Origin: Gemmatimonadaceae bacterium
GTDB lineage: Bacteria > Gemmatimonadota > Gemmatimonadetes > Gemmatimonadales > Gemmatimonadaceae
Reading direction: 5' to 3'
NCBI GenBank assembly: GCA_036003045.1
Contig: DASYSS010000010.1
Coordinates: 1-64,000 of the forward strand
Length of the DNA: 64,000 nt
Shown here: positions 58,312-60,125 of the stretch, piece after piece
Layout: every line of letters starts with the position of its first letter
Numbering within the stretch: position 1 is the first letter of the stretch
Made by a program: the position numbers and the translations under genes
The notes under the pieces: model-generated
The model's database searches: none
Told to the model about the DNA's origin: nothing
Seen by the model: the letters and a program-made list of their open reading frames with translations, nothing else

Positions 58312-58644
58312 CCATTCTCGGCCGATGGAGGGAAGGCGGGTGGATCGCGGCGAGCGTCGCGGCGCTCGCGGTCGGCCCTTTGGACATCGTTTGCGGTGCG
58401 AGGGTTGGGTTTTTTGTGACGGGCGCCACACATCCGCGCCTCTCGCGCGCGTGGGGTGAGGAAGATCACCGAGTTTGCGTGGCGCCAATGCCTTGCGCGG
58501 TGCAACGCTTTATTCTAAGAATGCTAAACGCTGGACGGACATGGTTTTCGGCTGTGACCGTGGTCACCAATGTAGTGCCCGGTTCTTGCGAATTGCCGTC
58601 TGCGAGTCACCCGTTTGCCAACAATACCACAGGAGATCGTGCAG
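58312..58644. other. Divergent intergenic region between ADOP permease and OmpA-type lipoprotein
   Basis: 333 bases without a convincing gene. It contains promoters for both directions. For the lipoprotein, a TTGCGC about 17 bases before TAAGAA near 58495-58525 is a weak candidate, and AGGAG at 58631 is its ribosome site. A short T-run (GTTTTTTGTG) lies near 58410 without a stem. Confidence 0.3.
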
Positions 58645-59322
58645 ATGCGCCTTCACACCGGACTTGCTTGGGTCGGAACTATCGCCTTGTTGAGCGGTTG
58701 CGCCACGACCGGCGCCCTCAAGCGCGCCCAGCAGCAGAACGCCGACGCCCTCGCTCAGGCATCGGCTCAGCAGAAAGCCGCGCTCGACGCTGAAGCGTCG
58801 CAGCGTGCGTCGACGGACAGCGCCCTTCGCCAGCAGCTCGGGCTCGTGCAGGGGGACGTGCAGCAGCTGAAGACCGACCTGCAGTCGATGCGCAATGATT
58901 TCAACGCCAAGATCACGGCGATGCAAGACGGTTTGCACTTCGACATGCCGGTGAACTTCGCGTTCAACGACGCGACCATTCGTTCGGACGACCAGCCGTC
59001 GCTGACGCGCTTCGCCCACGTCGTACAGCAGTACTATCCGAATTCGAAAGTGACCGTCGAGGGCTTCGCGGATCCCGCGGGCTCCGTCCGCTACAACCTC
59101 GTTCTTTCGGAGCGTCGCGCGAAGGCCGTCGCTGACTACCTCGCTTCGCAGGGCATGTCCCCCGCGCTGATCGAGACCGTCGGCTATGGCAAGACCCGCC
59201 TCGTCACGCCGAAGGCGTGGGGCGACCAGCCGGGCGCCGAGCTCAATCGCCGCGCCGTGTTCGTGATCGAGACCAAGGGTCAGGCGAGCGTCGCGCTCGC
59301 GAACCCCGCCGGGACGCCGTAA
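58645..59322 (+). CDS. OmpA/Pal-family peptidoglycan-associated lipoprotein
   Basis: 225 residues from ATG 58645, AGGAG nine bases upstream. The lipoprotein signal ends LLSGC (Cys about residue 19). A helical, Gln/Ala-rich coiled segment (about 25-95) resembles the Lpp/OmpA stalk. The OmpA domain follows: FAFNDATIRSDDQPSLTRFA, VTVEGFADPAG and NLVLSERRAKAVADYLASQG, GYGKTRLV, NRRAVFVIE, with the Asp and Arg that grip diaminopimelate. It tethers the outer membrane to peptidoglycan. The coiled stalk suggests it spans more of the periplasm than Pal. A strong terminator follows at 59355. Confidence 0.93.
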   Translation: MRLHTGLAWVGTIALLSGCATTGALKRAQQQNADALAQASAQQKAALDAEASQRASTDSALRQQLGLVQGDVQQLKTDLQSMRNDFNAKITAMQDGLHFDMPVNFAFNDATIRSDDQPSLTRFAHVVQQYYPNSKVTVEGFADPAGSVRYNLVLSERRAKAVADYLASQGMSPALIETVGYGKTRLVTPKAWGDQPGAELNRRAVFVIETKGQASVALANPAGTP

Positions 59323-59354
59323 CTAGCGCCCGCACTCTAATTGGCGAACGGTAA

Positions 59355-59387
59355 ACGGCCCGCCGGTGCATCGCACCGGCGGGCCGT
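59355..59387 (+). terminator. Terminator hairpin after the OmpA-type gene
   Basis: A perfect 15-bp GC-rich stem (ACGGCCCGCCGGTGC and its complement) with a 3-nt loop ATC, 32 bases after the stop codon. The following sequence (CTCGCGTT) is T-poor, so strength is inferred from the stem. Confidence 0.7.
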
Positions 59388-59423
59388 CTCGCGTTGCTCG
59401 GGCGGCGTAACAGCAACTATCCA

Positions 59424-59664
59424 CCGCAGAGACGCAGAGGTCGCAGAGGGGCGCAGAGGACAGCCGTAACGAGTGGCTCAGTCGCGCAACGAGCCATGTT
59501 TTTGGTGGACTGTCGCCCCGGGAGCAACGTCCTCACGAGGGCCTCAAAAGGCGAACGCACGGAGTCCCAGAGCGGCTTCCCAAAAAAATCCCGGCTCGTT
59601 GCGAGCGGAGCCTATTCGCCCGGGCACTCCTCTGCGCGCCTCCGCGTCCTCTGCGTCTCTGCGG
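59424..59664. mobile_element. 241-bp element with 37-bp GCAGAG-rich terminal inverted repeats
   Basis: The ends, 59424-59460 and 59628-59664, are inverted copies with 34 of 37 matches. Each is built from GCAGAG-type short repeats, starting CCGCAGAGACGCAGAGG. Inside, CGCAACGAGCC (about 59488) pairs with GGCTCGTTGCG (about 59593), so the whole can fold into one long hairpin. No transposase or other gene fits within. It resembles a miniature inverted-repeat element. Similar GCAGAG-rich repeats are familiar to me from many environmental bacterial genomes. It lies between the lipoprotein terminator and the third padR promoter. Confidence 0.6.
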
Positions 59665-59733
59665 CGGAGCAGTTCCGTCAGCCCGCGAAACGGGGTCTCG
59701 ATCCATCAACAGAGCCTGCCCGCCACGCTCCTG

Positions 59734-59780
59734 TTGAATTCCGACAGTACCGCGCGTATCCTCTGTAGAAACCCGACAGA
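59734..59780 (+). promoter_or_regulatory. Promoter and possible operator of the third padR gene
   Basis: TTGAAT at 59734-59739, a 17-base spacer, and TATCCT at 59757-59762 form a good sigma-70-type promoter. An inverted repeat TCTGT/ACAGA with a 9-base spacer (59762-59780) overlaps the -10 end and transcription start. Unlike the other two padR operators it does not reach the start codon (GTG 59793). Confidence 0.5.
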
Positions 59781-59792
59781 AGAGATCCGACG

Positions 59793-60125
59793 GTGGCGGC
59801 CGACCAATCTGACGTGCTTCGCGGCACGCTCGACCTGCTCATCCTCAAGACGCTGAACCTCGAGCCCATGCACGGGTGGGGCATCAGCGCGCGAATCCAG
59901 CAGTTCTCGCGCGGAGTGCTCGACGTCAACCAGGGCTCGCTCTATCCGGCCCTCCAACGGCTCGAGCAGCGCGGATGGATCGACAGCGAGTGGCGCACGA
60001 CCGAGAACAACCGGCGCGCCAAGTATTACCGGCTCACGTCGTCCGGGCGCCGAGCGGTCGGGTCCGAAACCGACAACTGGCGACGCTATGTGGGCGCGGT
60101 CGAGCTGATCCTCAAATCGTCCTGA
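59793..60125 (+). CDS. PadR-family transcriptional repressor
   Basis: 110 residues starting at GTG 59793. GTLDLLILKTLNLEP, HGWGISARIQQFS, GSLYPALQRLEQRGWID and RRAKYYRLTSSG make the PadR winged helix. It is followed after 24 bases by an ADOP permease, as in the other two pairs. Self-repression is inferred. Confidence 0.92.
   Translation: MAADQSDVLRGTLDLLILKTLNLEPMHGWGISARIQQFSRGVLDVNQGSLYPALQRLEQRGWIDSEWRTTENNRRAKYYRLTSSGRRAVGSETDNWRRYVGAVELILKSS

Follow-up and report, generated by a model that had tools for sequence, protein, structure and literature searches.

Between an OmpA-like gene and a padR-like gene, the 64,000-nucleotide stretch of DNA analysed here (the window) carries a strongly palindromic sequence without coding capacity, and this raises the question of what the hairpin is and how it came to stand there. 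Sequence comparison establishes that it belongs to a multi-copy family, that the family has its ends in common with a GxxExxY gene whose product has an intact predicted active site, that such hairpins and the gene are associated across genomes, and that members of such families are present or absent at orthologous sites in related species. We consider it probable that the hairpin is a non-autonomous mobile palindrome, similar to a REPIN or a MITE, and that a GxxExxY nuclease mobilizes it in trans.

A near-palindromic element upstream of a padR-like gene

The non-coding element, to which no strand is assigned, is a near-palindrome of 260 bp (59415..59674). Its boundaries were taken from the inverted arms and from an alignment of the 16 copies in the genome that have both ends, which pushes them outward to a AACTGCTCA-like end on each side. 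Repeats of an 8-9-nt unit, ACGCAGAG, make up the ends, far beyond what chance would give. Inverted arms and copy comparison likewise define the left end (59415..59460, plus strand), which begins with AACTATCCA and continues with four CGCAGAG-type units (CCGCAGAGACGCAGAGGTCGCAGAGGGGCGCAGAGG), and the right end (59629..59674, minus strand), which is its inverted copy. The CGCAGAG repeats of the outer arms are spaced 8-10 nt apart. These arms (59420-59465 and 59623-59668) are 46 nt long and 87% complementary, and inside them lies a second pair of 39 nt with 72% complementarity (left, 59485..59523, plus strand; right, 59565..59603, minus strand), which encloses the loop of the hairpin and whose GCCGCTCGGG core recurs in sister copies.

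An earlier reading of this DNA from sequence only had described an inverted-repeat element without coding capacity, and both statements hold. RNA folding of the two strands gives -171.3 and -184.3 kcal/mol (z -10.7 and -11.3), with none of 200 dinucleotide shuffles folding as well, and the only open frames in the element are those expected by chance. A search against Rfam returned three hits, all below the gathering threshold and none credible.

On one side of the element, and outside it, is a terminator-like stem (59347..59395, plus strand; 23-nt arms, 87% complementary) that follows the OmpA-like gene (58615..59322, plus strand). On the other side is the padR-like gene (59793..60125, plus strand), in line with the position given earlier, between a terminator and a padR promoter; both genes are open reading frames named by inspection. 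The two genes are also adjacent in the relative G202, where the element is absent and the diverged spacer hides the exact junction. At the place of the window hairpin, the G202 spacer (L120, G202:C4) carries another palindromic repeat-like sequence, GTCATCCTGAGCGAAGCGAAG...GAGGGATCTC. Just 5' of the padR-like gene, window positions 59720-59785 (CTCCTGTTGAATTCCGACAG...CCGACAGA) are well kept in G202 and are probably a promoter or operator; the hairpin stands outside this stretch.

Copies of the hairpin in the genome

The genome is a 98.5% complete draft of 5.37 Mb in 106 contigs, and a DNA search with the element found 45 matching pieces in it. This search, the end pattern and 20 fetched regions together yield 17 loci with such ends, of which 16 keep both. 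Three fetched regions (L047, L049 and L050) were dropped for want of a convincing end pair, L049 having a weak pair with three mismatches, and one locus that has lost an end (L043) is included in the 17 and left out of paired counts. The sequence-only reading had named a single copy in the genome, with no similar copies in relatives, as the finding that would speak against a mobile element, and 17 loci are the opposite of this.

The consensus end over these copies is AACTGCTCACCGCAGAGACGCAGAGGACGCAGAGG. Measured between the outermost CCGC...GCGG, the copies span 106-254 bp with a single exception of 461 bp, and 16 of the 17 loci are non-coding while one carries a gene. Chance open frames across the copies are too frequent at this GC content to tell intergenic placement. 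The hairpin family of this genome is, judged by sequence divergence, an old one, because the larger copies resemble one another only moderately over their first 100 bases; the ends are far better kept. Outside their ends, several copies (L032, L034, L035, L037, L044 and L046) are bordered by runs of GCAACT/GCAACG-like hexamers.

One copy carries a GxxExxY gene

The coding locus, the C38 copy (L040), is 481 bp long and holds a single GxxExxY gene between the same ends as the hairpins. Its protein matches TIGR04256 at 133.6 bits (cut-off 35, E 3.8e-39) and PF13366 (PDDEXK_3) at 127.9 (cut-off 22, E 3.2e-37). No other recognized gene lies between the end pairs at the 17 loci, where pairs lacking GxxExxY are at most 254 bp apart. 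The genome has four GxxExxY genes, only one of which stands between these ends. A transposase with matching ends had been suggested as a check on mobility; a gene between the same ends does exist, but its product is a PD-(D/E)XK-type GxxExxY protein and no known transposase.

Five other genomes of the genus were searched for the site of the coding element, and in all four that keep both flanks the element is absent. The matched flanks lie 36 bp apart in G200 and 105 bp apart in G177, and in G144 they enclose 613 bp with an apparent other gene. In G202 the 278 bp between them contain an unrelated hairpin with CTCGAGC-type repeats (L292, G202:C2:15886-16165), and inverted-array elements of two kinds seem to have entered this one gap. 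Because it is missing from four of four syntenic relatives, the coding element is, on the evidence of gene order, a lineage-specific insertion.

GxxExxY genes and inverted ends across genomes

In the phylum, 61 of the 200 genomes searched carry GxxExxY. We compared the flanks of 33 phylum loci (the four of the genome itself and the best of the others) and of 80 GTDB loci from Bacteria and Archaea, which are the best-scoring relatives of a nine-sequence query rather than a random sample. Six GTDB loci with a flank shorter than 120 bp were excluded, leaving 74, and the same reason removes one phylum locus from the motif test. When arms are required to score at least 15 within 450 bp, inverted arms flank 17/33 phylum and 51/74 GTDB loci and fall below threshold at the remaining 16 and 23, compared with 4.5% (phylum) and 4.4% (GTDB) for swapped flanks and 0/19 for control loci.

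Most arms at the GTDB loci read (T)CACC[AG]C[AGC][AG]AG, with more units after it. In simplified form, this start motif faces inward on both sides of the gene at 44/74 GTDB and 11/32 phylum loci, where about 0.1 such pairs are expected from shuffled flanks; none were found at 30 loci of another small-ORF family, 23S_rRNA_IVP, or at the 19 controls. Outward-facing pairs occur at 5/74 and 4/32 loci, respectively. Furthermore, the similarity of the ends rises with that of the GxxExxY proteins (Mantel r 0.30, p 0.0005, n=51; r 0.29 at held GC), a correlation to which host relatedness may contribute.

The same association is seen when the end pattern ACCRCRGAGRCRCRGAG, with up to one mismatch, is counted in the 200 phylum genomes. 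Fifteen genomes have at least 10 hits and 126 have at most five each. GxxExxY is found in 13 of the 15, versus 61/200 overall (Fisher p 4.5e-6), and 48 of the 61 genomes with GxxExxY stay below 10 hits. Two hairpin-rich genomes, G175 and G049, have no detected GxxExxY; in G175 its absence may be no more than a gap in the assembly, since the contig corresponding to the pyrE-GxxExxY locus of the genus breaks off within pyrE. Within the genome's own family co-occurrence is weak (10/11 versus 36/58, p 0.085), and the association there is only suggestive. IVP genes are also enriched in hairpin-rich genomes (14/15, p 0.0008), but this enrichment vanishes among GxxExxY genomes (p 0.67), whereas GxxExxY remains significant among IVP genomes (p 0.004). 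All of these co-occurrence tests take the genomes to be independent, although they are not.

These counts also bear on a known class of mobile hairpin. A 2011 study (PMC3116915) describes dispersed, intergenic, gene-free hairpin doublets, the REPINs, and proposes that they are moved in trans by the product of a gene located elsewhere and often flanked by the repeats, the RAYT, a Y1 HUH transposase. The anatomy is the same here, but it is very unlikely that the window element is a REPIN moved by a RAYT: the 98.5% complete draft has no match to Y1_Tnp (PF01797), and Y1 genes show no link with hairpin-rich genomes (4/15 versus 47/185, p 1.0). A RAYT was rejected as mobilizer in this genome on both counts, the zero PF01797 matches and the missing co-occurrence.

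Occupied and empty sites in related species

Presence or absence of hairpins at orthologous sites could be followed in the genus g11. A younger family there, that of G065, counts at least 29 hairpins, which are 157-162 bp long, have ends reading CACCACGGAGGCACGGAG and have their boundary about 13 bp outside CACC, at GCTGGSCTTTTT; two of them stand on either side of the GxxExxY gene of this species (L214, G065:C21). Four hairpin sites in g11 are filled in one species and empty in others. Specifically, G031, G204 and G207 lack the G065 hairpin that stands between pyrE and GxxExxY, G115 lacks the one at C21:411496, G175 lacks the one at C21:417852, and both G065 and G115 lack the G031 hairpin at C31:7898. 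The comparison set has one genome per species, with spacers too diverged for base-exact junctions. This polymorphism between relatives, along with the multiple copies, bears out the earlier proposal of a mobile miniature element.

The GxxExxY gene adjoins a pyrE-like gene (named by inspection) in several g11 species (L214 versus L215-L219 and L224) and is absent there in G115. Because several species share this pyrE-side locus, GxxExxY can also exist as a resident gene.

The sequence-only reading had left a choice between a mobile element and a strong RNA or DNA hairpin. A hairpin selected for regulation or structure and kept in place, such as a terminator, an mRNA stabilizer or a protein-binding palindrome, would suit the very strong predicted folding and the conservation of the ends over copies. 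It would also suit two G065 sites where G031 and G204 have hairpins in the same position, each of its own type, although these sites may instead reflect hot spots or homogenization. The empty orthologous sites argue against this account, as does the scarcity of covariation: consensus folding of 39 copies of the best-sampled family (29 from G065 and 10 from G031) gave 43 pairs, only three of which show double changes. Because of this, conservation of the G065 and G031 hairpins is mainly one of sequence. In addition, the two outer arms of a copy in the genome's own family resemble each other hardly more than they resemble the arms of other copies (p 0.02-0.03), and the inner part shows no excess, 1848 of 5040 permutations reaching the observed value. 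We judge a selected, immobile hairpin improbable; of the earlier pair of readings, the dispersed mobile element is the one supported.

Concerted evolution of the two arms was considered separately for the genome's own family, and the same outer and inner values give it little support.

A second alternative is that the element is a classical MITE, a deletion derivative of a DDE-transposase insertion sequence, and that GxxExxY is cargo or a neighbour. The element is short, palindromic and multi-copy with matching ends, as this would predict. The target-site duplications that had been suggested as a further check were not seen, however. No fixed-length duplication was found in 29 G065 copies (best z 2.6, against permuted maxima of 2.7-3.5 that were scored slightly differently) or in the 16 copies of the genome itself (best z 3.6, permuted 2.7-4.5). 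GxxExxY is, moreover, the sole recognized gene among the 17 end pairs, and the end motif recurs around GxxExxY genes in many phyla. A classical MITE is thus an unlikely explanation.

GxxExxY as a predicted nuclease

The GxxExxY protein of the C38 copy is a predicted PD-(D/E)XK nuclease whose catalytic residues are intact. The residues of the GxxExxY motif and the active-site D, E and K are invariant in 31 of 31 proteins, including that of C38, and in all 78 aligned GTDB proteins; L057 and L076 were left out of alignment A1, and L146 and L159 (in-frame stop) were left out of A6. A model of the L138 protein built with 78 sequences reached a pLDDT of 96.7 and a pTM of 0.89. The solved structures closest to this model are mostly PD-(D/E)XK proteins, the best match being 4ic1 (SSO0001; Z 9.1, rmsd 4.0, 98 residues aligned), which we take to be a Cas4. 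Lower scores, which at Z below 8 may indicate a common arrangement only, were obtained for 3ijm (Z 7.3, rmsd 3.0, 97 residues), the Holliday-junction resolvase 1gef (Z 7.0, rmsd 3.2, 85 residues) and the fdxN excision controlling factor 2okf (Z 6.2, rmsd 3.1, 86 residues). Foldseek gave no match to the model at E 0.001 (best 0.005), and a sequence search of the PDB gave none.

The nearness of this PD-(D/E)XK fold to 4ic1, together with the weak similarity of one of two proteins to Cas4 (E 0.005-0.007), would fit a defence or addiction module whose GxxExxY nuclease spreads in some other way and has the hairpins as its targets or decoys. Against this, the GxxExxY protein of the genome has no match to a defence family, with PHROGs and PADLOC both returning nothing, and the gene occurs as an insertion, alone between the ends. 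Such a module is highly improbable. Six plasmid records have a GxxExxY match.

A model for mobilization in trans

We infer that the GxxExxY protein binds the ends, cuts them and moves them. In the model that we favour, mobilization of the hairpins by GxxExxY, the inverted end arrays of 8-9-nt units would be the binding sites of the protein. The full element would be a GxxExxY nuclease gene between such ends, here the 481-bp C38 copy, and the short hairpins would be derivatives moved in trans, in the way proposed for REPINs and RAYTs. The nuclease would bind the two arms, which would probably be paired in a cruciform or a single-stranded hairpin, and would cut at or near the element ends. The released or copied hairpin would then be joined into intergenic DNA with no target duplication of fixed length.

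The link between GxxExxY and hairpins is new. We found no literature connecting GxxExxY with repeats or mobility, although subscription journals or preprints may hold such a report, and the available portions of the papers found give the family a bare mention. GxxExxY proteins are common and have no assigned role, and hairpins with CACAGAG/CGCAGAG units surround them in many phyla. If the model is correct, an orphan nuclease family would gain a function and the repeats an origin, and a PD-(D/E)XK enzyme would join the short list of ways by which tiny prokaryotic hairpins spread without target duplication. More tentatively, and with somewhat more doubt than belief, we suggest that GxxExxY nucleases mobilize a large, overlooked class of hairpins with inverted short-unit end arrays in Bacteria and Archaea, and that a sister class with 7-nt units exists around four-helix-bundle 23S_rRNA_IVP genes, so that two unrelated small proteins would each partner an inverted-array element.

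Relation to known repeats

REPINs carry a conserved tetranucleotide beside the palindrome. Like a REPIN, the element is a hairpin in which two inverted repeat units flank a spacer. Unlike in REPINs, its ends are arrays of 8-9-nt units and the hairpins are longer (106-260 bp); the partner is a GxxExxY protein of PD-(D/E)XK fold rather than a Y1 HUH transposase, and the partner gene can itself sit between the ends as a lineage-specific insertion. The element was not classed as a REPIN because no Y1 gene was found. With the MITEs of insertion sequences it shares short length, lack of coding capacity, terminal inverted repeats and several copies. Unlike in MITEs, no target-site duplication was found here, nor, among the 17 loci of the genome, a transposase with these ends, and the element was not classed as a DDE-type MITE because of the missing duplication.

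Short tandem direct repeats are also dispersed between genes, as in the cyanobacterial STRRs with their 7-nt units; the units here differ in being 8-9 nt long and in forming inverted pairs. The heptamers of Beggiatoaceae, such as TAACTGA, are likewise described, in PMC4679880, as short tandem direct repeats with a 7-nt unit dispersed between genes, and differ from the inverted pairs of 8-9-nt units in the same way. Arrays with a 7-nt period were also observed around the four-helix-bundle genes (PF05635, 23S_rRNA_IVP), which lie between inverted short-unit arrays with arms scoring at least 15 at 27 of 30 loci from the 200 phylum genomes (L084-L113). The best period is 7 nt for 21 of these 27 (for example CAGGTAT, GGAAGCC and AGAGTTG), and the unit differs at most loci.
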